DNA of 64,000 nt from Nitratireductor sp. B36. GTDB lineage: Bacteria; Pseudomonadota; Alphaproteobacteria; Rhizobiales; Rhizobiaceae. Of this stretch, positions 15,418-52,107 are shown in pieces; position 1 is the first letter of the stretch; each line of letters opens with the position of its first letter. The stretch is taken from positions 186,001 to 250,000 of the forward strand of contig NZ_JACKZY010000003.1 of assembly GCF_020833685.1 (NCBI RefSeq), given 5' to 3'. Below the pieces are notes generated by a model. That model saw only the letters and a list, made by a program, of their open reading frames with translations, had not been told where the DNA came from and made no database searches. The position numbers and the translations under genes were made by a program.

Positions 15418-15708
15418 TCAGACGCCCTCGATGATGCTGAGCCTGGCTTTTGAAACGGGTTGCCGGAATGTGATGGCATGCTGGTATTCCGGCGAATGGT
15501 AACAGGCGAGCGCCTGCTCATAGGACGCGAACTCGATGACCACCTGACGGTCGCCCGTCGGTTCCTCCGGCGCGACCGACTGCCCGCCCCGCACCAGAAA
15601 TTTCGCGCCGTACTTCTCAAAGGCGGCGGCGTTGGCTTCGATATATTTCCTGTAGCCCTCGAAATCGGTGATCTCGACCTGCGCGATCCAGTAGCCTTTT
15701 TTGTTCAT
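15418..15708 (-). CDS. DUF1330 family protein
   Basis: 96 residues, the full length of the DUF1330 ferredoxin-like (dimeric alpha-beta barrel) family. KGYWIAQVEITDFEGYRKY opens it and DRQVVIEFASYEQALACYHSPEYQ is the diagnostic centre. No catalytic role is known; related folds are small-molecule or monooxygenase-like domains. It precedes hisA by 3 nt. Expression with hisA seems likely, a histidine-specific role is not shown. Confidence 0.88.
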   Translation of the reverse strand: MNKKGYWIAQVEITDFEGYRKYIEANAAAFEKYGAKFLVRGGQSVAPEEPTGDRQVVIEFASYEQALACYHSPEYQHAITFRQPVSKARLSIIEGV

Positions 15709-16044
15709 GCACTTTTAGAAGGGATTCAGAATGAGAAATAAGAATCCAGCGGTGTTCGACTTAAATAGAAGCTGCAATTCTCATTCGGCCACTTATCCCC
15801 AAAAAGCATAAGCGGCTGTTAATCTGCATTAAACCAATCTGGACTCCCTCACGCTCCCTACGTAAGACTCGATTCGCCAAATACAAAAAGCCGGGATTCC
15901 GGCCCGGCTTTTTGAAGCCCGCAACGAATTGGATGCCGAGGGCAATAGGATATTTCCTACTGGAGTTTCAAATCATATCGCTGAATCTCAGTCAACTTCC
16001 TTCCTTTGGCCGGCATCCGTATTTTCCTCCCAAGGAGAAGAGCG
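15709..16044. other. 336-bp intergenic region in the his cluster with a bidirectional terminator
   Basis: No protein frame is supported. The plus strand between the DUF1330 start and the terminator at 15885 has no gene to terminate, so a plus-strand small RNA of up to about 170 nt is possible. On the minus strand the same terminator would stop transcripts coming from hisH before DUF1330 and hisA, which then need a promoter within 15709-15884. The segment is AT-richer than the surrounding genes. Confidence 0.5.
15885..15913. terminator. bidirectional Rho-independent terminator between hisH and hisA units
   Basis: AAAAAGCCGGG and CCCGGCTTTTT, 11-bp perfect arms with a 7-nt loop, T5 on both strands. 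Confidence 0.88.
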
Positions 16045-16329
16045 ATGGCTCATGCCAAGTTAACACATACCGACGCCGTAAAGTCCTGGGTATTGAGGGC
16101 TTGCGGCTGGAAACTAAGAGACATTCAAGCACGCTTCGACGTCGACCCGCGTCGCCTATACGAGGTATGGGAAGAGATAGAATGTCCAGGCAGTAGAGAA
16201 GCTGCGATTAAAGTGTTCCGACGACTGCTTCCGAATCAACCAGTTAAGGATAGATTCGAGAAGCACCAGCCTCGCTTCATGCGCCTGCAGAAGCAGGCAA
16301 GTTCAGAACCGATGCTGCCAGGTTTCTAA
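16045..16329 (+). CDS. small orphan helix-turn-helix protein
   Basis: 94 residues from an ATG 7 nt after AAGGAG; the frame runs 13 codons further upstream without a ribosome site. Residues about 9-60 ([19 protein letters not shown], then [12 protein letters not shown]) look like a homeodomain-type HTH: an amphipathic helix, a turn and an Arg/Tyr recognition helix. The C-terminus is basic with no known domain. It lies on the opposite strand to the his genes, convergent with hisH, whose stop it overlaps by 4 nt. I do not recognise the family. It could be a small regulator or a remnant of a mobile element. Confidence 0.7.
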
Positions 16330-16976
16330 GGCCTCCAGCGAAGGAAATTGGCGATCAGCGCCAGGCCAAGCGCCTGGCTCTTTTCCGGGTGGAACTGTGT
16401 GCCCACCAGATTGTCCCGCGCGACCGCGGCAGTGATCGGCCCGCCATAGTCAGCGGTGGCGAGAACCTCCGCCTCATTGCGGGCCGCAAAGTAATAGGAA
16501 TGCACGAAATAGGCGTGCAGACCGTCGGCTCCGGTGGGGATTCCATCGAAAATCGGGTGCAAGTGTTTCACGTGAATCGTGTTCCAGCCGATCTGCGGGA
16601 TCTTCAGCTCCGGGTCGGCCGGGGTCATCTCGACCACATCTCCGGCAATCCAGCCGAGCCCTTCCGTGACCGACTTTTCCAGCCCGCGTTCGCTCATGAG
16701 CTGCATGCCTACACAGATGCCGAGGAAGGGACGCGCCTGATGAATGGCAACATCCGTGATCGCCTCGACCATGCCCGGCACGGCATCGAGCCCCCGCCGG
16801 CAGTCGGCATAGGCACCGACACCCGGCAGAACAACCCTGTCGGCGGTGCGGACGGCATCGGCGTCTGCCGTCACGTTGATTTCGGCTGCGATGCCGTTTT
16901 CATGCGCAGCACGCTCGAAGGCCTTTGCGGCCGAGCGCAGATTGCCCGAACCGTAATCGATGATCGCAACCTTCAT
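16326..16976 (-). CDS. hisH: imidazole glycerol phosphate synthase, glutamine amidotransferase subunit
   Basis: 216 residues, class I glutaminase that feeds ammonia to HisF. The triad is Cys88 ([11 protein letters not shown]), His196 and Glu198 (QFHPEKS); the YGSGNLRS N-terminus is diagnostic. ATG at 16976 was preferred to a TTG two codons upstream; it follows the DUF2628 stop by 2 nt, with GGAG about 10 nt before it. Here it is separated from hisA by a terminator and by the HTH gene on the other strand. Confidence 0.97.
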
Positions 16977-28822: not shown

Positions 28823-29674
28823 TCACCCTCTGTTCTCCTTCGACTTCGCATATAATGCGAGAATGGCAGCAGCGGTTTCCTCGATCGAGCGGCGGGTTAC
28901 ATCTATCACCGGCCAGCCATGGCGTGCGCAGAGCTGGCGCGCATAGGCGATCTCCCGGGAAATGGTCACCCGGTCGGTATAGGGATTAAACGCGTTTTCA
29001 TCCACCGATCCCAGAATCCGGTTCTGGCGAATCTGCGAAATGCGTTCCGCAGATGCGACCAGCCCCACGATCAAAGGCCGTTTCGCACTGGAAAGCTGCT
29101 CCGGCAGCTTCATGTCCAGAACGATGGGCACATTTGCGGTCTTTACGCCCCTGTTAGCCAGATAGATGCTGGTTGGCGTCTTTGATGTACGGGAGATACC
29201 CACCAGGATGACATCGGCTTCCTCCACATCGAGTGGCAGTTGTCCATCATCATGATCCATTGTGAAGTTCAGCGCATCGATGCGATGAAAATATTGGGCG
29301 TCGAGCACGTGCTGAGCTCCCATGCGCCTTCCCGCCGGCGTGCCGAGATAAGACTGAAACACCATCAGAACCGGCTCGAGCACGGATACACAGGGCAGGC
29401 CGAGCACAGCGCAACCTTCATCCACCTGGCGGGCAAGCTTCTGGTCCACCACCGTATACAGCACGATGCCGGGCTCGCGCTCCACCTCGTCAAGCACACG
29501 AGCGAGCTGCTTCTCGTTTCGAATCAGCGGGTAGATGTGCTCGATCGCCCGCGCATCCTTGTATTGCGCGGCAGCAGCGCGTCCCGCGGCGAGCAGAGTC
29601 TCGCCGGTCGCATCAGAAATCATGTGAAGATGGAAGAAGCGCTGCGGCTGTTGCACGGATTTTTGCCCCGCCAT
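28823..29674 (-). CDS. ppsR: PEP synthetase regulatory kinase/pyrophosphorylase (DUF299)
   Basis: 283 residues of the DUF299 family, bifunctional serine/threonine kinase and Pi-dependent pyrophosphorylase of PEP synthetase or pyruvate phosphate dikinase. [19 protein letters not shown] is the diagnostic N-terminus, [18 protein letters not shown] the nucleotide loop and [14 protein letters not shown] the second phosphate loop. The start at MAGQK matches rhizobial homologues; the open frame upstream reaches into the candidate origin and is not used. It is divergent from hemE, the conserved oriC-flanking pair of alphaproteobacteria. Confidence 0.96.
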
Positions 29675-30055
29675 GTGGATGCCTGTTGATAACGCGGGCC
29701 CGAAAAAATGGCGAGGCCGCACCCTTTGATAACTCCACCTGTTCTTCCACAGACAGGCCTCGTGTGAATTGAGATCGTCCCATGTGGAGAACAATCGACG
29801 ATTCCTGAACCTTCCTTCACTGTCCACCAGACAAGGTCAACCCAAATTGCTGCAGCCTATTGAATCTGCGTGCTGAATCCGCATTATCCCCGTTCTTCTG
29901 AAGATGTGCGTTTCTGTGAGGCGCGGCAATAAGACCGGGCTCGCGATGCGCAAAACCGTGGACAGATTTGAATCCACATTACAAACAGAGTCTAAGAATC
30001 AGAAGAATCTTCAGATCTGTAATTATCTTTTGAATCCTGACTGTGGAGCAGCCTG
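29675..30055. other. candidate chromosomal replication origin (oriC) between ppsR and hemE
   Basis: 381-bp non-coding gap flanked by divergent ppsR and hemE, the gene pair at the experimentally known origin of Caulobacter and at rhizobial origins. DnaA-box-like nonamers with one mismatch to TGTGGATAA are TGTTGATAA (29684) and TGTGGAGAA (29783); with two mismatches TGTGGATGC (29674), TTATCCCCG (29884) and GAATCCACA (29970). Eight GANTC sites lie within 29800-30036. The hemE-proximal part (29965-30040) is AT-rich and could unwind. Gene strand bias reverses here, and parABS is 6-11 kb away. Confidence 0.75.
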
Positions 30056-31081
30056 ATGGGGCAGCGGAAAATCCTTGATGTGCTTAGAGGCGAGACGGTG
30101 TTTCCGCCTCCCGTCTGGATGATGCGCCAGGCCGGACGATATTTGCCGGAATACCGGGAAGTCCGGAAGCAGGCAGGGAGCTTTCTTGATCTCTGTTACA
30201 ACCCCGATCTGGCAGTGGAAGTGACATTGCAGCCGATCCGTCGTTTCGGGTTTGATGCATCGATCCTCTTTTCCGACATTCTCGTGGTGCCGCATGCGCT
30301 CGGCCGCGGCCTGCGCTTCGAGGAGGGCAGAGGTCCGCTTCTGACGCCAATCGATGCTAGCGGTATCGCAAAACTTGAGACATCGGGTTTTCACGATCAT
30401 CTGGCGCCGGTCTACGAAACGGTGCGGCGGCTTCGCAGGGAGCTTCCCGATGAAACGACACTGCTCGGATTCTGCGGAGCGCCCTGGACGGTGGCGACCT
30501 ACATGATTGCCGGGCATGGCACACCGGACCAGGCACCGGCCCGCATGTTCGCGCTTGAGCAGCCGGAGGCCTTTTCCACCCTGATCGACTGCCTTGCGGA
30601 CTGTTCCGCCGAATATCTGATCCGCCAGATCGACGCCGGCGCGGATGCGGTACAGATTTTCGATTCCTGGGCAGGCGTTCTCGATGAACTGTCTTTCGAG
30701 CGGTGGTGCGTGAAGCCGGTGGCACGGATGGTGGCCAAGGTGCGGGAAAAGCATCCCGACACACCGATCATCGGCTTTCCGAAGGGTGCAGGCGCGCTTT
30801 ACGCAGGCTATCGCCGGGAGACGGGCGTGACGGCACTCGGGCTCGACTGGACGGTTCCTCTGGGCACAGCGCGCCGCCTGCAGGCCGAGGGGGCGGTTCA
30901 GGGCAATCTGGACCCTCTGAGGCTGATTGCCGGCGGAGAGGCGCTCCACGAGGGCGTGGACGCGATTGTGGAAGCGCTGCGGCATGGCCCGTTCATCTTC
31001 AACCTTGGGCACGGCATCACGCCGAAGACGCCCATTGAGCATGTGGAAGCAATGCTGAAACAGATTCGGGAGGCCGAGTGA
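30056..31081 (+). CDS. hemE: uroporphyrinogen decarboxylase
   Basis: 341 residues. [16 protein letters not shown] near the N-terminus and [18 protein letters not shown] in the middle are the family signatures. It removes four acetate carboxyls from uroporphyrinogen III to give coproporphyrinogen III. GGAG stands 8 nt before the ATG. The stop overlaps the hemJ ATG by 1 nt, so two steps of haem synthesis are co-translated. First gene on the right of the candidate origin. Confidence 0.98.
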
Positions 31082-33137: not shown

Positions 33138-35153
33138 TCACCAAGAAGTCGTTGCCTGACCGGCTTGGCGCAGGGCGGCGTCTAACGCCTCAGGCGTCTC
33201 AAAGGGCGGCAGGCAGACTTTCCCGATGCAGAGATAGGCCGCTCTCTTTTCAGCGTTGATGCTCATGCCGTCTGGTAGGCTTTGAGGACGGTCATCGGTG
33301 ATGACAATGTCGAACCGGGATGGATCCAGGTGTCGATTCGCTACCGGAACGAAAACGCGCTGATTGTCAGGCTCAACCATAAGAAGCTTTTTGGACATCT
33401 CAACCAGTGCCGAGGCGTAGACGACGCCCGCCTGGCCATAGGCTTGTCTGACTGTTCGGCCCAGAGCAGACTCTGCCACGTCTGAAACATGGTTGTTAAG
33501 CGTTTCGTGGGAAAGCATGGAGAGGGCCAGGAGGGCCTCAATGATCTGGCTGGTAGCGGATGGTATGGCTTCATCCACGTCTCCGCGTATCCGCATGGGC
33601 AGGTCTGCTGCATCGCTCGCCGAGAGATAATAGCCTGTTCCGCTCTCATCGAGGTACCAAGAGCGAAGTTTGTCAGCCCAATCATTTGCCTGGGCGAGAA
33701 AATCTTGCTCTGCGGTTGATTGAAAAAGCGATGCCGCGGCGGAAATCATGCAGGCGTAATCGCTCGAGAGACCAGGAAAAACCGCTTTTCCCTCGCGTAG
33801 GCTGTGCGGAACACGCCCATCTCGCATCGATTCGCTTACGAAACGAAAAGCCTGTCGCGCGGCGTTCAACCAATCTGGGCGCTGGAGCAGACGTGCTGCC
33901 TCTGAAAGTGCACTGATCGTGAGACCATTCCAATCAACAAGGACTTTGTCGTCGCGGCCGGGTTGGTCACGCTTCTGTCTTGCAGTGAGAAGCTTATCCA
34001 GCATGGATCGCAGCTGCGTTTCCCGCGCCGCGCCGAGATATTGAGGTTGATGGCGGCGGTGAAGGATCGGATCTCCATCCCAATGCTCTGGACTGGCCAA
34101 AGAGAAGGTTTCGAAGAAGAGGTCCGCCTGATCGCCCAGGACGTCCGCAATCTGCGCTCTCGTCCAAAGATAGGTTTTTCCTTCAACACCACGAGTATCG
34201 GCATCAAGACTGGAGGCGAAGGCGCCACTCTCCAAACGCATCTCGCGCAGCAGCCAGGCAACAGTCTCTTCGATTCGGATGCGGAACAACTCGTTCGCTG
34301 TTTCGCTATAAGCCCAGCAAAGCAGGCGCAGGAGCTGAGCATTGTCGTACAGCATCTTCTCGAAATGGGGAACAAGCCAGCGCTCGTCAGTCGAGTAGCG
34401 TGCCAGCCCACCGCCGACATGATCGTAAATCCCGCCAGCCAGCATCGCTGTGAGGCTTTCGATCACGGCGGATCTATGGTCATCAGCCTGGCTCAGCCAC
34501 AGCGTGCGCATGAACGGGGCGTTGGGAAACTTGGGAGCACCACGCAAGCCGCCCAGATCCTTATCGATCATCGAATGAATCTTGGCGGCAAGCGACTCAA
34601 GTGCTGTGCGCGGAGAAACGGGACCTCCTGCATCGGATGCAAGTTGCGCTTTCACGTGAGCGCTGAGTACGCTGGCACTTTTCAAAAGCTCGCTTTGCTT
34701 GTTCTGCCAGGCTTCATTCACCGCGTGCAGCACTTGCTGGAAACCTGGCCGTCCATACTGCTGCCTTGGAGGGAAATATGTGCCGCCCCAAAAAGGCTGT
34801 GCGTCGAAATCGAGGAACATCGTCAACGGCCAGCCGCCTTGCTCTCCCATCGCGGAAAGCGAAGCCATGTAGATCTGGTCGATCTCCGGCCGCTCTTCCC
34901 TATCAACCTTGATGTTGACGAAATACCGGTTCATCACCTCTGCGACTTCGGGATCTTCAAAAGACTCATGTGCCATCACGTGGCACCAGTGACAGGCCGC
35001 GTAGCCAACGGAAAGCAGAATTGGCTTGCCTGTTTCTCGTGCCTCCCGTAGGGCATCTGCGGTCCAGGGCCTCCAGTGAACGGGATTATCCTTGTGCTGG
35101 AGCAGATACGGACTTGTCTCGTCCGCCAGAAGATTTTTTGCGGGCAGCGGCAT
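33138..35153 (-). CDS. thioredoxin-domain protein (DUF255, YyaL/Spermatogenesis-associated 20 family)
   Basis: 671 residues. The N-terminal thioredoxin-like domain (DUF255) has CHWC at 54-57 (GYAACHWCHVMAHESFEDPEVA over two pieces), after the family opening NLLADETSPYLLQHKDNPVHW. The remainder is a six-hairpin glycosidase-like alpha/alpha barrel typical of these proteins. AAGGAG 5 nt before the ATG fixes the start. No exact reaction is known. It is convergent with rho and divergent from mnmE across about 90 bp. Codon use is somewhat less GC-rich than its neighbours. Confidence 0.92.
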   Translation of the reverse strand: MPLPAKNLLADETSPYLLQHKDNPVHWRPWTADALREARETGKPILLSVGYAACHWCHVMAHESFEDPEVAEVMNRYFVNIKVDREERPEIDQIYMASLSAMGEQGGWPLTMFLDFDAQPFWGGTYFPPRQQYGRPGFQQVLHAVNEAWQNKQSELLKSASVLSAHVKAQLASDAGGPVSPRTALESLAAKIHSMIDKDLGGLRGAPKFPNAPFMRTLWLSQADDHRSAVIESLTAMLAGGIYDHVGGGLARYSTDERWLVPHFEKMLYDNAQLLRLLCWAYSETANELFRIRIEETVAWLLREMRLESGAFASSLDADTRGVEGKTYLWTRAQIADVLGDQADLFFETFSLASPEHWDGDPILHRRHQPQYLGAARETQLRSMLDKLLTARQKRDQPGRDDKVLVDWNGLTISALSEAARLLQRPDWLNAARQAFRFVSESMRDGRVPHSLREGKAVFPGLSSDYACMISAAASLFQSTAEQDFLAQANDWADKLRSWYLDESGTGYYLSASDAADLPMRIRGDVDEAIPSATSQIIEALLALSMLSHETLNNHVSDVAESALGRTVRQAYGQAGVVYASALVEMSKKLLMVEPDNQRVFVPVANRHLDPSRFDIVITDDRPQSLPDGMSINAEKRAAYLCIGKVCLPPFETPEALDAALRQAGQATTSW

Positions 35154-35244
35154 GGCGGCTCCTTGCACATCGAACGGTTATGGAAAATATCTAGCCCTGA
35201 CTTCAGCGCCACGGTAAGGCGCTTTCCACGCGAGAGCAAACGAC

Positions 35245-36558
35245 ATGAGAGAAACCATATTCGCACTCTCGAGCGGTGCTTTGCCATCAGGCGTCGCCGT
35301 CGTGCGATTGTCGGGCCCAGGTGCAGCCGATGCGCTCGTATCGTTGGCAGGTGAGAGGCCTCACCCGCGTCGTGCTACGCTAAAAACCTTGCGAGATCAG
35401 GACGGCGTTGTTCTGGACAAGTCTCTTAGTCTGTTCTTTCCGGGGCCACACAGTTTTACCGGTGAGGATTGTGTTGAGCTGCATCTTCATGGCGGGCGCG
35501 CAGTCGTGAGAGCTGTGCTGGAGACGCTCTCTCGCCGAAAAAACTTCCGGATGGCAGACGCCGGTGAATTTACGCGGCGCGCTTTTCTGAACGGGAAGTT
35601 CAATCTCACGGAGGCCGAAGCACTTTCGGATCTGATCGCTGCGGAGACAGAAACACAGCGCCGCTTCGCCCTGTCTAACTCGGAGAATCGCCATAGGGCT
35701 CTCTATGATGGATGGCGGAGAACGCTCATTCAGACCCGGGCTATGATCGAAGCGGAGCTGGATTTTTCGGACGAGGAAGATGTTCCGGGCTCCGTTGCCG
35801 ATCAAGTGTGGAAAGACGTCGACACTCTGCGAAATTCGCTGAAGCGACATGCAGCCGGTTATCGCACCGCTGAGATCATCAGAGAGGGGTTTCGTGTGGT
35901 TATTCTCGGCGCTCCGAATGCCGGAAAATCGAGCCTGCTGAATACCCTCGCGCGCCGTGACATAGCCATTGTCACAGAGGAACCAGGCACCACGCGTGAT
36001 GTTCTCGAGGCCAGTCTGGACATTAACGGCATCAAAGTCATCGTCACGGACACAGCCGGGATTCGTGCGAATCCCGGCAGGGTAGAAGCCATGGGTATCG
36101 ATCGCGCGATTGATCGCGCACGCGAAGCCGACCTTCTCTTGCTGCTGGAAGATTGCAATGAGCCCGTTCCGGTGGAGATCCCTCATGTGACTTCAAGCTT
36201 GAGGGTGGGAAACAAGATCGATCTGGCTCCCGATGTACCGCTCAAAGGCCGGTATGATTTCGTTATCTCGGCACGCACAGGCGAGGGGATTGATAAACTT
36301 CTGGACAAGGTGCGTTCTCTCGCGACATCGGCAACTGAACGAGCGGGGGAGACACTTCCCTTTCGCGAGCGGCACGTGCAGCTGATCCTGGATGCGGCAA
36401 CGCACGTTGAACGCGCGGCGGAAGGGCAGGATCTGCCACTCGAGCTTCGCGCTGAGGAGTTGAGACTGGCTGCCGAATCGCTTGGACGTATTACCGGTGC
36501 GATTGATGTGGAAGATCTACTCGATACGATCTTCTCGCAGTTTTGCATCGGCAAGTGA
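35245..36558 (+). CDS. mnmE: tRNA uridine-5-carboxymethylaminomethyl modification GTPase MnmE
   Basis: 437 residues. N-terminal folate-binding domain (about 1-120), helical domain, and an inserted G domain with GAPNAGKS at 222-229 and DTAGIR as switch II. The C-terminus CIGK holds the essential Cys434. With MnmG it installs the carboxymethylaminomethyl group on U34 of tRNAs. Its TGA stop is at the same time the first three bases of a parS-like site. mnmG lies 281 bp downstream behind the parS array. Confidence 0.98.
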   Translation: MRETIFALSSGALPSGVAVVRLSGPGAADALVSLAGERPHPRRATLKTLRDQDGVVLDKSLSLFFPGPHSFTGEDCVELHLHGGRAVVRAVLETLSRRKNFRMADAGEFTRRAFLNGKFNLTEAEALSDLIAAETETQRRFALSNSENRHRALYDGWRRTLIQTRAMIEAELDFSDEEDVPGSVADQVWKDVDTLRNSLKRHAAGYRTAEIIREGFRVVILGAPNAGKSSLLNTLARRDIAIVTEEPGTTRDVLEASLDINGIKVIVTDTAGIRANPGRVEAMGIDRAIDRAREADLLLLLEDCNEPVPVEIPHVTSSLRVGNKIDLAPDVPLKGRYDFVISARTGEGIDKLLDKVRSLATSATERAGETLPFRERHVQLILDAATHVERAAEGQDLPLELRAEELRLAAESLGRITGAIDVEDLLDTIFSQFCIGK

Positions 36559-36571
36559 TTCACGTGAAACA
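36556..36571. other. parS-like site 1, overlapping the mnmE stop codon
   Basis: TGATTCACGTGAAACA: 15 of 16 match the ParB consensus TGTTTCACGTGAAACA. The single mismatch (T to A at position 3) creates the TGA of mnmE. Confidence 0.85.
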
Positions 36572-36592
36572 AGTCAGGTTCTGATCTTCGGA

Positions 36593-36608
36593 TGACTCAC
36601 GTGAAACA
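36593..36608. other. parS-like site 2
   Basis: TGACTCACGTGAAACA: 14 of 16 match the consensus, with the palindromic core TCACGTGA intact. Confidence 0.75.
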
Positions 36609-36627
36609 ATAGAGAGCAGCCACGGTG

Positions 36628-36643
36628 TGACTCACGTGAAACA
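36628..36643. other. parS-like site 3
   Basis: TGACTCACGTGAAACA, identical to site 2, 35 bp further on. Confidence 0.75.
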
Positions 36644-36674
36644 TTCGCCACCCATCTTCAGTTCTGCGAAACAA

Positions 36675-36690
36675 TGTTTCACGTGAAACG
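36675..36690. other. parS-like site 4
   Basis: TGTTTCACGTGAAACG: 15 of 16 match the consensus and the inner 14 bp (GTTTCACGTGAAAC) form a perfect palindrome. Confidence 0.9.
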
Positions 36691-36839: not shown

Positions 36840-38711
36840 ATGACGAACAGCAAATATGATGTAATTGTTATCGGAGGTGGACACGCTGGTACCGAAGCGG
36901 CGTCTGCTGCAGCGCGATCCGGTGCCAGGACCGCGTTGGTCACGCTGCATTTCGATACGATCGGGGCGATGTCCTGCAACCCGGCTATCGGAGGGTTGGG
37001 TAAAGGCCATCTCGTGCGGGAGGTGGATGCACTTGACGGTATTATGGGCCGCGCGGCAGATGAAGCAGGAATTCAGTTTCGACTGCTTAATCGCCGCAAG
37101 GGCCCCGCTGTGCGCGGACCGCGGACGCAGGCGGACCGAAAACTCTATCGAAACGCCGTCCAGAAAGCGATCAAGGCAATCCCCAATCTCGACGTCATTG
37201 AAGGGGAAGCTTTGGAGCTTCAGATCAGTGCGGGCCGGATTACCGGGCTTGTGGTGTCCGGTGAACGCCATTTGACCTGTGGCGCTGTGGTTCTGACGAC
37301 CGGAACTTTCCTGCGCGGTCTTATCCACATCGGGGAGAGGACTTTCCCTGCGGGGCGGATGAATGAACAGGCAGCCGAGCGTCTTTCGATTTCCATGGAA
37401 GCAGCAGGCTTTCGTCTGGGCCGCCTGAAAACCGGGACACCTCCGAGACTCGATGGACGGACCATCGATTGGGCGTCGCTTGATATGCAGCCGGCGGATG
37501 ACGAGCCCACACCTTTCTCCTTGCTGACGGAACGGATCACCAATCGTCAAATCGAATGCGGCATTACGCGTACGACCAATGAGACACACGCGGTTATCCG
37601 CGCGCATCTTCATCGCTCTGCTATGTACTCTGGTGCCATTGATGGCATAGGGCCGCGTTATTGCCCCTCAATTGAAGACAAGATCGTCAAATTTGGTGAC
37701 CGGGAAGGGCATCAGATATTTCTCGAGCCGGAGGGGCTCGATGACCATGTCGTGTATCCCAACGGTATCTCCACATCGCTGCCGGAGGATGCGCAGCTCG
37801 CTCTGCTGAAAACGATCCCGGGGCTGGAACATGCGGTCATGCTGCAGCCTGGTTACGCCATCGAGTATGATCATGTGGATCCACGCGATCTGGAGCCCAC
37901 GCTCGAGACGCGACGGGTTCGTGGCCTTTTCCTGGCGGGCCAGATCAACGGTACAACAGGTTATGAGGAGGCCGCGGCGCAAGGGATACTCGCAGGTCTC
38001 AACGCCGCGCGTTTTGCATCAGATGGGCAGATGATCACACTCGGGCGGGCCGATGCTTATATTGGGGTTCTGGTCGATGATCTGGTGACGCGCGGGGTGA
38101 GCGAACCCTATCGCATGTTCACGTCGCGTGCAGAGTTTCGCCTGTCCCTCCGCGCTGACAATGCAGATACACGCCTGACGCCGCTGGCGATTCGCCTCGG
38201 TATTGCCTCTCAGGAGCGGACGAAGAAATTCGAAGCGCTGGAAGGGGCTTTGTCTATGACACGTGAACTTCTTCAAAGCCGGGATATCAGCCCCAATGAA
38301 GCGGCGCGACACGGCATCAATCTCAATAAGGACGGGGTGCGTCGCTCGGCCTACGAGCTGTTATCCTACCCGGATATGAGCATAAGCCGGCTTATAAAAA
38401 TATGGCCGGACTTCTCAAGCATCTCCTCGGATCTCGCGGAAAAAATTGAAACGGAAGCACGGTATGCGGTCTATCTTGACCGGCAGGGCGCCGACGCGGC
38501 CATGTTACGCCGCGAGGAGGCACGCTTGATTCCGCCAAAGTTGATGTTTGATTCCATCGCAGGGCTTTCGAATGAGCTCAAACAGAAGCTCAGGGAGCGA
38601 AGACCCAGGAGCATCGCTGATGCTCAGCGGATCGATGGCATGACTCCGGCTGCATTGGCGCTGATACTTGCCAGTATGCGTCAGTTTGAGAACCGCCGGG
38701 GCGCAGCCTGA
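36840..38711 (+). CDS. mnmG: tRNA uridine-5-carboxymethylaminomethyl modification enzyme MnmG (GidA)
   Basis: 623-residue FAD enzyme partnering MnmE. The dinucleotide-binding motif GGGHAG is at 12-17; [21 protein letters not shown] is spread over the substrate region, with [11 protein letters not shown] and [16 protein letters not shown] typical of GidA. The start was set at the Met preceding TNSKYDVI; ten upstream codons in frame have no homology. It joins rsmG by a 1-nt stop/start overlap. Confidence 0.98.
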
Positions 38712-39343
38712 TGGAATCAGCGCAATTTTCGCGACTATCGGAGGTGGCAGGGCCGGTTTCACGTGAAACATATGAACGGCTGGTCGCGTTTGAAAGCGTT
38801 TTCCGGCGTTGGTCAAGACGAATCAATCTGGCTGCGCCGTCGACGTTGAACGATCTTTGGGAGCGGCATATCCTCGATAGCGCGCAGTTGCTTCGCCTCG
38901 CACCTGAGGCACTGCGTTGGCTGGATGTGGGCTCGGGCGGCGGCTTTCCGGGGGCGGTGATGGCCATTCTGCTGGCGGACAAGCCGGGTGCGGAGGTGCA
39001 TCTGGTTGAAAGCAACAGAAAAAAAGCTGCGTTCCTGATCGCAGCCCTTAATGAAGTGGGTGTTTTCCCCCGCGTTCATGCAAAACGAATCGAAGACTGC
39101 TACGATGTTGTTCCGACGCCGCAAATAGTTACAGCACGGGCCCTGGCGTCGTTGCCGCTGCTGATCGAGCTGACGGAGCCCTGGCTAAGAACTGGAGCAA
39201 GAGCTCTCTTTCACAAAGGTCGGGATTACCAGCGAGAAGTCGAAGAAAGCGGTAACACGTGGCGATTCGATCTGATAGAACATGAGGATAAGGTTGATGC
39301 GGCAGCCATCATTCTCGAGGTGAGCAACCCGGTTCGGCGATAG
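38711..39343 (+). CDS. rsmG: 16S rRNA (guanine-527-N7) methyltransferase RsmG (GidB)
   Basis: 210 residues. SAM-binding motif LDVGSGGGFPG at 71-81, VESNRKKAAFL as motif II, and RALASLPLL as the RsmG-specific loop. It methylates G527 of 16S rRNA; loss gives low-level streptomycin resistance in many bacteria. The ATG overlaps the mnmG stop. Codons 15-20 (Val-Ser-Arg-Glu-Thr) are a parS-like sequence. Confidence 0.97.
   Translation: MESAQFSRLSEVAGPVSRETYERLVAFESVFRRWSRRINLAAPSTLNDLWERHILDSAQLLRLAPEALRWLDVGSGGGFPGAVMAILLADKPGAEVHLVESNRKKAAFLIAALNEVGVFPRVHAKRIEDCYDVVPTPQIVTARALASLPLLIELTEPWLRTGARALFHKGRDYQREVEESGNTWRFDLIEHEDKVDAAAIILEVSNPVRR
38755..38770. other. parS-like site 5, inside the rsmG coding sequence
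   Basis: GGTTTCACGTGAAACA: 15 of 16 match the consensus, and the inner 14 bp are a perfect palindrome. It encodes Val-Ser-Arg-Glu-Thr of RsmG. Confidence 0.9.
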
Positions 39344-39395: not shown

Positions 39396-40184
39396 ATGAA
39401 CAGCGGCACGCGAATCATCACAGTCGCAAACCAGAAGGGTGGGGTCGGCAAGACGACAACGGCCATCAATCTCGCTACGGCGCTGGCCGCGATCGGCGAG
39501 AATGTTCTCGTGGTTGATCTTGATCCTCAGGGTAATGCCAGCACGGGATTGGGTATTGATCGCCAACAGAGGCTGATGTCTTCCTACGATGTCCTGACGG
39601 GCAATGCGGGCATTCTCGAAGCTGCCATGGAAACCGCAGTTCCTGGTCTCTCTATTGTGGCATCCACTCTTGATCTTCTTGGTATCGAGATGGAGATATC
39701 CAGCGCCCCGGATCGCGTCCTCAAATTGCGCAACGCGCTGAATGCCGATGGCATTCCTTATTCCTACGTTCTGATCGACTGCCCGCCATCGCTCAATCTC
39801 CTCACGTTGAACGCCATGGCGGCGGCAGATTCCATCCTGGTGCCGCTGCAGTGTGAATTCTTCGCGCTTGAGGGGTTGAGCCAGTTGCTTGAGACAGTCG
39901 AACAGGTGCGCGGATCGATCAACCCGCATCTTGGCATTCAGGGGATCGTTCTTACCATGTTCGATCGGCGCAACAACCTTGCCAATCAGGTGGTGGAGGA
40001 TGTGCGCGCGCATATGGGCGACACGGTCTATGACACGATCATCCCGCGCAACGTCCGGGTTTCTGAGGCGCCGTCCTATGGAAAACCGGCAATTCTTTAT
40101 GATCTGAAGTGCTCAGGTAGTCAGGCTTATCTGCAGCTTGCGTCTGAAGTGATCCGACGGGAGCGCCGTCTGCGCGCCGCGTAG
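39396..40184 (+). CDS. parA: chromosome partitioning ATPase ParA
   Basis: 262 residues, small chromosomal (type Ib-like) ParA without an N-terminal DNA-binding domain. The deviant Walker A KGGVGKTT is at 14-21, and VLIDCPPSLNLLT is Walker B. It forms dynamic nucleoid-bound dimers that pull ParB-parS complexes apart. parB follows after 56 bp; five parS-like sites lie within 3 kb upstream. Confidence 0.98.
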   Translation: MNSGTRIITVANQKGGVGKTTTAINLATALAAIGENVLVVDLDPQGNASTGLGIDRQQRLMSSYDVLTGNAGILEAAMETAVPGLSIVASTLDLLGIEMEISSAPDRVLKLRNALNADGIPYSYVLIDCPPSLNLLTLNAMAAADSILVPLQCEFFALEGLSQLLETVEQVRGSINPHLGIQGIVLTMFDRRNNLANQVVEDVRAHMGDTVYDTIIPRNVRVSEAPSYGKPAILYDLKCSGSQAYLQLASEVIRRERRLRAA

Positions 40185-40240: not shown

Positions 40241-41110
40241 ATGAACGAAGATCCCTCACGCAAGCGCCTGGGGCGCGGTTTGGCCGCGTTGATTGGCGAG
40301 ATGGACAAGCCGGAAACCGAGCAGAAGGAGGCTGTACGGGCCGATCGCTCTGTTCCGATCGAATTCATTTCTCCCAACCCGCGTAACCCGCGCCGGCAGT
40401 TTGCGGAGAGTGATCTGAGTGATCTTGCGCAGTCGATCCGCGAACATGGCATCGTGCAGCCGGTGGTTGTCCGTTCCGGGGATGCTCCAGGCCGTTTCGA
40501 GATCATCGCTGGTGAGCGTCGCTGGCGGGCTGCGCAGCGCGCCGGCCTCACGGAAGTGCCGGTGATCTTGCGTGAGGTGGACGACAAGGCAGCGCTGGAA
40601 CTTGCCATCATCGAGAATGTTCAGCGTGCGGATCTCAACCCTTTGGAAGAGGCCCGGGGCTATCAGCAGCTTATCGATGAGCATAACTACACGCAGGCTG
40701 ATCTTGGTCAGGTGATCGGCAAGAGCCGCAGCCACGTCGCCAATACATTGCGCCTTTTGAAGCTTCCGGACGCGATTGGTGACCTGATCGTGGACGGATC
40801 CCTGTCGGCCGGCCATGCACGCACATTGGTCACGGCGGAAGACCCTGTCGCTCTAGCGCAGCGCATTGTTGAGGACGGTCTTTCCGTCCGACAGGCAGAA
40901 GCGTTGGCCGCCGCCCCGCATGGCGAGGAGAAGGCGCCTCGGTCCCCCAAGAAGGACAAGGATGCCGATACGCTGGCGCTACAAAAACTTCTGAGCGATC
41001 GGACCGGGCTCAAAGTCGTGATCAATCATAAGGAGCGAGGAGGCGAAATGCGGATTGCCTATCGTTCTCTCGAGCAATTAGACGAGTTGTGTCGGCTTCT
41101 TCAGCAATGA
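40241..41110 (+). CDS. parB: chromosome partitioning protein ParB
   Basis: 289 residues. RKRLGRGLAALIGE at the N-terminus is the ParA-stimulating region. The CTPase domain has IREHGIVQPVVVR and the catalytic GERRWRA at 91-97. An HTH (YTQADLGQVIGKSRSHVAN, about 145-163) recognises parS, and the C-terminus (RGGEMRIAYRSLEQLDELCRLL in two parts) dimerises. It loads at the parS array upstream and slides as a CTP clamp. Convergent with holA over 222 bp in which I see only a 7-bp stem (TCAGCGT / ACGCTGA). Confidence 0.98.
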   Translation: MNEDPSRKRLGRGLAALIGEMDKPETEQKEAVRADRSVPIEFISPNPRNPRRQFAESDLSDLAQSIREHGIVQPVVVRSGDAPGRFEIIAGERRWRAAQRAGLTEVPVILREVDDKAALELAIIENVQRADLNPLEEARGYQQLIDEHNYTQADLGQVIGKSRSHVANTLRLLKLPDAIGDLIVDGSLSAGHARTLVTAEDPVALAQRIVEDGLSVRQAEALAAAPHGEEKAPRSPKKDKDADTLALQKLLSDRTGLKVVINHKERGGEMRIAYRSLEQLDELCRLLQQ

Positions 41111-51831: not shown

Positions 51832-51989
51832 GAGCCTTGGTCTGCCGACCGCAACGAGAGGCAAACAACGCTTTTTCTTGACTCCGGAGACGATTTCCTG
51901 TCTACAAGCGCGAAATTCCGCGACGAGTGACAACTCCGAGCAGCCGACCAGGGCACCTTTCGATAGAAAGTAGCGATCCTGGAGGTCAA

Positions 51990-52023
51990 CACCCGGCAGC
52001 GTGATGCGCCCCCGGGTGCTTTT
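51990..52023 (+). terminator. possible terminator between the unknown gene and ffh
   Basis: CACCCGG / CCGGGTG stem with a 15-nt loop and CTTTTC tail, 159 nt past the preceding stop. Apart from this hairpin the 276-bp gap shows nothing further. Confidence 0.5.
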
Positions 52024-52107
52024 CGGCTTTGCGCGATATTTGAAGCTCAGGCGCGGATGCATTACCTCTCGCATGACCACGAAAGATGCGAGACATGAGG
52101 AACGCGG

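Follow-up and report, generated by a model that had tools for sequence, protein, structure and literature searches.

Where on its chromosome does Nitratireductor sp. B36 start replication? The initial annotation proposed the intergenic gap between ppsR and hemE, and our analysis leads to the same answer: the 381-bp gap at 29675-30055 is very probably a chromosomal, DnaA-dependent oriC, as predicted from its sequence. The genome (4.19 Mb) is in nine contigs (C1, C2 and so on). We analyzed a 64-kb stretch of C3 (C3:186001-250000), which we call the window, and positions given without a contig are positions in the window. In contig numbering, the gap is C3:215675-216055.

The gap and its flanking genes

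The gap and the genes on either side of it are:

28823-29674, minus strand: ppsR, regulator of PEP synthase/PPDK, left flank (NCBIfam PRK05339, 341 bits)
29675-30055, unstranded: intergenic oriC candidate, 381 bp (skew minimum, density of DnaA boxes and GANTC, hemE/ppsR pair)
30056-31081, plus strand: hemE, uroporphyrinogen decarboxylase, right flank (TIGR01464, 418 bits)

The start codons are ATG at 29674 on the minus strand (ppsR) and ATG at 30056 on the plus strand (hemE), and the gap between the two genes runs exactly from 29675 to 30055. The ppsR gene (PRK05339) is, we presume, the COG1806 gene. An origin of the hemE/COG1806 type should lie between hemE and the ppsR gene, have a cluster of DnaA boxes beyond chance, have above-average AT content or an unstable stretch, and coincide with a switch in GC skew from negative to positive. 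The gap lies between these two genes, and we found the other three features there as well (see below). The closest named relatives of PpsR are from Nitratireductor sp. pb3 (98%) and from other Nitratireductor. We also considered a longer ppsR coding region that would begin at the GTG at 29827, which we rejected because two relatives (L010 and L011) have a one-base gap there.

The proposed strand reversal is present too. On the left side, ppsR and the ORFs that we assigned by eye as dnaQ, coaE, aroE, and maf are transcribed leftward; on the right side, hemE, rho, mnmE, mnmG, parA, and parB are transcribed rightward. The exception on the right side is one long leftward ORF (33138-35168). Elsewhere in the window, we noticed a match to Rfam RF01793 (ffh sRNA) at 51975-52026 (58.3 bits).

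This arrangement is widespread among relatives. In all 80 named loci (the best 80 of 424 from a search with PpsR), hemE is divergent and next to ppsR, and ppsR is present within 1.5 kb in 24 of 30 further hemE loci (this genome included). After setting aside the 6 loci without ppsR within 1.5 kb, the 110 hemE loci (L003-L112, where L003 is this genome) left 104 gaps. The relatives' gaps include 97 distinct sequences, and the named and other locus sets overlap. The relatives in all of our conservation counts share kinship, and the counts are without phylogenetic correction. Gap length is 365-459 bp in 102 of the 104 gaps and 742-743 bp in the other two. These two long gaps are from Mesorhizobium (L055 and L063) and exceed the rest by about 350 bp.

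GC skew switches inside the gap

We computed the cumulative GC skew per base across 100 contiguous kb (C3:160001-260000). The minimum is at 29898, inside the gap, where the skew switches from negative to positive, and all of the positions within 30 counts of the minimum are at 28841-30725. A skew minimum elsewhere would speak against this locus, as the initial annotation had pointed out. We looked for one in 20-kb samples from the five contigs of more than 200 kb, plus all of C6; together, the samples amount to roughly half of the genome (2.08 out of 4.19 Mb, in nine contigs of undefined order). At this half density, we found no rival clean switch: among the chromosomal contigs, C3 alone has a clean negative-to-positive switch, at 200-240 kb.

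Samples from C3 have a weak skew left of the gap (-0.036 to +0.001), and to the right, single samples are negative at 600 and 840 kb. On C1, the skew approaches zero at 520-640 kb. Separately, the skew in C1:40001-120000 goes from positive to negative, which makes this region a candidate for the terminus. C5 (288 kb) has a skew switch at about 100-120 kb, at its repC gene (C5:107900-108388). Because C5 carries repC at its skew switch, the evidence points to C5 being a separate repABC replicon.

In a congener (G008), the skew minimum across 80 contiguous kb is at 646844, which is about 0.8 kb away from the gap (approximately 645648-646028). To the right of the origin in G008, the samples are weakly positive, and the 1.0 Mb sample is negative. 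In another congener (G001), 20 of the 21 samples at 0-1.22 Mb are negative, as expected, since all of them are left of hemE (1.72 Mb).

Degenerate but conserved DnaA boxes

As had been claimed for this locus, a scan of the 381-bp gap for perfect matches to TTATCCACA, the DnaA box, gave none. The only perfect TTATCCACA in the 64-kb window is at 37321, within mnmG. The gap does contain six sites with up to two mismatches:

29684-29692, minus strand: DnaA-box-like TTATCAACA, 1 mismatch (9/9 columns invariant across 10 genomes of the genus)
29743-29751, plus strand: DnaA-box-like TCTTCCACA, 2 mismatches; TCATCCACA in some congeners (8/9 columns invariant)
29783-29791, minus strand: DnaA-box-like TTCTCCACA, 1 mismatch (9/9 columns invariant)
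29884-29892, plus strand: DnaA-box-like TTATCCCCG, 2 mismatches, the weakest candidate (6/9 columns invariant)
29970-29978, plus strand: DnaA-box-like GAATCCACA, 2 mismatches, overlapping a GANTC site (8/9 columns invariant; GAATC in 10/10 genomes)
30042-30050, minus strand: DnaA-box-like TGCTCCACA, 2 mismatches, the most hemE-proximal (7/9 columns invariant)

These nonamers are more numerous than in dinucleotide shuffles of the gap. The two sites with one mismatch compare with a shuffle mean of 0.066 (4 of 2,000 shuffles reached two), and the six sites with at most two mismatches compare with a mean of 0.95 (none of 2,000 shuffles reached six). In the 64-kb window overall, the excess of boxes with no more than one mismatch is mild (11 versus 5.7 expected). 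None of the six sites matches the stricter consensus TTATNCACA, which is the one used in the portion of PMC1914354 that we consulted.

Among 101,983 windows of 381 bp in the 2.08 Mb sample, no locus has a higher box density than the gap, and one locus on C1 equals it with 6. For TCCACA motifs, the gap shares first place in the genome sample with one locus on C2, at 4. Of the places sampled, C2:485361-485900 looks most like the origin, with four copies of TCCACA and as many as five of GANTC; perhaps this is a DnaA-titrating or DnaA-regulated site.

The boxes are also conserved. When ten genomes from the genus are aligned, 47 of the 54 box columns are invariant, while 23.2 are expected, and none of 380 circular shifts (mean 23.2) reached 47. 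With no perfect box and with degenerate boxes that are conserved, the idea that binding would rely on degenerate sites holds up: the predicted binding of DnaA would use degenerate boxes, a conclusion that the sequence supports.

An unstable and conserved region at the hemE end

The gap is 51% AT, as compared to 41% for the window, and AT content rises to 68% at 29975-30024. The AT-rich end that had been described is the hemE side, where we mapped three features:

29920-29930, plus strand: invariant block GGCGCGGCAAT (10-genome alignment)
29957-30009, plus strand: most conserved core, from CGTGGACAGA to GAAGAATC, where the candidate unwinding region starts (alignments; low duplex stability on the right part)
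29977-30036, unstranded: candidate DNA unwinding element, the 60 bp of lowest duplex stability in the gap, with 70% AT (nearest-neighbor energy scan)

In the 2.08 Mb sample, just 0.05% of all 60-bp stretches have a lower stability than 29977-30036. The ten genomes share further invariant blocks: TGGCGAGGC at 29709, CGTGGACAGA at 29957, TTGAATCCAC at 29968, and TTACAAACAGA at 29979. The GGCGCGGCAAT block does not match the DnaA box, CtrA, or IHF motifs.

The core contains a pentamer that is mostly GA[CG]TC. We counted this pentamer from its flanks alone, without requiring GANTC: of 97 distinct relatives, 67 have GACTC and 20 have GAGTC (87/97 together); six differ and four have no match. Among 17 genomes from other genera of the family, 13 have the exact core pattern ACMGASTCWNAGAA at most 120 bp from their hemE match, and the other 4 lack it in the vicinity of hemE. 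It is by hemE in 5 of the 6 genomes of the family that lack ppsR within 1.5 kb. In the other families of the order, none of the 23 genomes that we searched has it next to hemE. This analysis covered 40 of 59 hemE-bearing relatives (17 of the 26 from other genera and all 23 from other families). Five of the 17 family genomes are also represented among the 104 gaps, as are all 9 of those omitted. In two gaps, presumably those of L055 and L063, the match to the core pattern is 430 bp before hemE. We rejected ACMGASTCWNAGAA as a class-wide pattern, as it was matched in just 17 of 142 genomes of the class; this genome aside, none of the matches listed is by a listed ppsR.

We also asked if the gap contains a basal unwinding system. 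The published rule (a DnaA box, a spacer of 0-16 bp, and three or more DnaA-trios of the published polarity) gives no matches in the gap, so we rejected a standard DnaA-trio module. We took the rule from passages of PMC8287927 and the polarity from passages of PMC8235120, and the orientation of the box is our own reading of them. The rule is a low-information pattern: it matched 40 of the 104 related gaps. Like a basal unwinding system, the gap has unstable, purine-rich triplets with a middle A (AAG AAT CAG AAG AAT, 29994-30008) near DnaA boxes; unlike it, the gap does not fit the published polarity and spacing as we read them. Because the DnaA-trio rule has no match in the gap, we infer, rather than observe, melting at the hemE end.

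GANTC sites cluster in the gap

GANTC is the site of the methyltransferase CcrM, and the gap has eight of these sites:

29800: GANTC site, kept in 1/10 genomes of the genus
29862-29879: GANTC sites at 29862 and 29875, kept in 7/10 and 10/10 genomes
29970: GANTC site, constant across the genus alignment
29988-30009: GANTC sites at 29988, 29996, and 30005, kept in 10/10, 9/10, and 10/10 genomes
30032-30036: GANTC site, kept in 8/10 genomes (GAATC in 6, GACTC in 2)

At three of these sites (29875, 29988, and 30005), variation within the genus is restricted to N, with GA and TC fixed. Shuffles of the gap have 2.4 sites on average, and 5 of 2,000 reach eight. In the genome sample, GANTC has a density of 1.37 per kb, and no window off the gap reaches eight sites (2.08 Mb). 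The gap is also the only place in the sample with at least six GANTC together with at least four boxes. Separately, there are seven GANTC in 381 bp at 15621-16100, between ORFs that we assigned by eye as hisA and hisH; this is among the few places in the genome sample with at least seven.

Across the 80 named loci, there are 13.6 GANTC per kb in the gap and 1.9 per kb in the flanks, and 66 of the 80 gaps contain at least four. We ranked 136 abNcd patterns by enrichment, and GANTC came first in each of the three locus sets that we tested. These sets overlap: they are all 80 named loci, 25 loci that we picked by hand for spread, and 33 loci (L080-L112) that are mostly from Rhizobium, Shinella, and Ensifer. 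In L080-L112, TANAA and CTNAG are close behind GANTC (6.5 versus 6.7). Because the flanks are mostly coding, part of the excess of GANTC over the flanks may be a general intergenic preference; the ranking of windows within this genome does take in other intergenic DNA. The cluster is kept as GANTC, as would be expected of an origin that is gated by methylation, though not in all relatives: the number per gap ranges from 1 to 9, and some relatives have only one or two. Among the proteins encoded in the genome are GcrA and one with a RAMA domain, the domain type of CcrM.

parS sites and parAB

The nearby parABS system that had been noted consists of parA, parB, and six parS-like sites spread over 16564-38770:

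39396-40184, plus strand: parA, ParA-family ATPase, below equivalog cut-offs
40241-41110, plus strand: parB (TIGR00180 parB_part, 193 bits; cut-off 58)
36556-36690, unstranded: cluster of parS sites between mnmE and mnmG (36556, 36593, 36628, and 36675)
38755-38770, unstranded: parS with a perfect 14-mer core, within ORF 38711-39343 (rsmG by eye)
16564-16579, unstranded: isolated parS-like site left of the origin

Four parS hits in the genome have at most one mismatch in the 14-mer, and all four are within 14 kb of the gap. In 6 of 6 congeners among the matches listed, the variant at 16564 is about 14 kb from hemE.

Four of the six parS-like sites (16564, 36556, 36593, and 36628) have GANTC in one arm, in the forms GAATC, GATTC, GACTC, and GACTC. 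The sites at 36675 and 38755 depart from GANTC by one outer base only. The GATTC and GACTC variants are at matching places in congeners, among the matches listed. In Caulobacter, GANTC sites at the parS locus already serve as methylation controls, according to passages in PMC5172544.

How the origin would work, and where else it might be

The position of the skew switch, the clustering and conservation of the boxes, the instability of the hemE end, and the clustering of the parS sites are features of the sequence itself. In the mechanism that we propose, DnaA would bind the six degenerate, conserved boxes that are spread over the gap and would open the AT-rich duplex at the hemE end (about 29977-30036). 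Forks would then leave the gap in both directions, and ParB, on parS sites within 14 kb, would segregate the new origins. We infer the binding of DnaA, the melting site, and bidirectional firing at the gap.

Could the gap merely be the promoter region of two divergent genes, with the DnaA and GANTC motifs serving transcription and the origin elsewhere nearby? ppsR and hemE do need promoters, DnaA and CcrM/GcrA are described as controlling transcription in Caulobacter in parts of PMC3973325, and a protein with a RAMA domain, as in CcrM, and a GcrA are encoded here. Nevertheless, we consider this very improbable: promoters alone do not account for a skew minimum that falls inside the gap (and about 0.8 kb off in G008), for a motif core that stays by hemE in 5 of 6 genomes without ppsR within 1.5 kb, or for a combination of motifs that occurs at no other place in the 2.08 Mb sample. 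Even less credible is an origin at some other place, such as beside dnaA, where many bacteria of other classes have theirs. The one match to dnaA is on another contig (C4:81042-81527), the order of the contigs is undefined, and our sampling covered half of the genome, all of which leave room for such an origin; but the 9 samples from C4 have no clean negative-to-positive switch at the position of dnaA, and we rejected an origin there on these grounds. The switch on C5, at about 100-120 kb, coincides with repC (at 107900), which fits a repABC replicon. An oriC between ppsR and hemE remains our strongly preferred reading. It would place the origin of this genome in 381 bp, with a conservation map of which bases of the degenerate sites matter.

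Might methylation control initiation?

The GANTC cluster is the unusual point of an otherwise ordinary and very well supported origin. Tentatively, and with low confidence, we suggest that the origin of this family carries CcrM sites under selection, clustered in the unwinding region and within one DnaA box (GAATCCACA), and that hemimethylation after firing would alter the binding of DnaA or melting and so delay re-initiation. If true, this would be an alphaproteobacterial counterpart of Dam control, and the parS sites with GANTC arms might follow the same clock. We think it probable, instead, that the cluster is a by-product of the DnaA-box and unwinding sequences, or of GcrA-based transcription of hemE, and has no role in initiation. 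This fits with the variable number of GANTC per gap among relatives, and with published results: Caulobacter without CcrM has a DNA content profile like the wild type's in minimal medium (as described in PMC3973325), and in Agrobacterium, depletion or excess of CcrM altered ori2 but not, visibly, ori1 (as described in PMC11514494). A by-product does not readily explain why GANTC is the most enriched spaced pattern, out of 136, in all three of the overlapping locus sets or why only the middle letter varies within the genus at three of the sites in the gap.

The origins of Caulobacter and its close relatives are reported to contain several GANTC, and CcrM is reported to be dispensable for the control of initiation in Caulobacter (both in the sections of PMC3973325 that we consulted). 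Over-expression of CcrM gives extra chromosome copies, as cited in the same sections. The Caulobacter and Agrobacterium data argue against strong control of initiation by methylation. As described in the consulted sections of PMC3973325 and PMC11514494, both tests changed methylation across the cell, and neither used an origin with altered GANTC sites. A literature search that excluded most subscription journals gave us no study of clustered GANTC sites in the DnaA-dependent origins of Rhizobiales. The cluster makes an old question testable: does methylation by CcrM affect initiation at these origins?

Comparison with known origins

The origins of Caulobacter and Rickettsia are reported to lie between the same pair of genes, hemE and the COG1806 gene (PMC1914354, in part). 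Like our gap, Cori of Caulobacter crescentus is between these genes and has an AT-rich stretch, with five DnaA boxes (PMC1914354), and several GANTC motifs are reported there too (PMC3973325). In contrast, Cori is described as having five CtrA sites and one IHF site (PMC1914354), and the gap has none at the thresholds that we tested. For CtrA, there were no matches to TTAA-N7-TTAA in the gap with at most one mismatch (there were 2 with two mismatches) and no matches to TTWW-N7-TTWW on either strand. For IHF, there were no matches to WATCAN5WTR on either strand. We therefore rejected canonical control by CtrA or IHF, and judging by these motifs, control by CtrA via TTAA-N7-TTAA sites at the gap is unlikely. 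The lack of CtrA sites agrees with Brucella, whose CtrA was reported as not binding the Brucella origin in the portion of PMC2877005 that we consulted. The analogy to Caulobacter that the initial annotation had drawn is right for the gene neighbors and the degenerate boxes and fails for the CtrA and IHF consensus sites.

Another comparison is to the oriC of Sinorhizobium meliloti, which reportedly (Sibley, in 2006) adjoins hemE and supports autonomous replication, with mapped DnaA sites. The core ACCGACTCTAAGAAATAGAA is common to the five gaps from Ensifer, among the matches listed in a comparison of the 102 gaps of 365-459 bp. Unlike the gap studied here, which has 8 GANTC, these five have 3 each, and their sequence differs off the core.

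The oriC of E. coli, which is under the control of Dam and SeqA, is dense in methylation sites. The gap resembles it in having dense methylation sites, one of which overlaps a candidate initiator site; the methylase and the motif are different. Passages of both PMC3973325 and PMC11514494 bring up Dam/SeqA of E. coli as a contrast.
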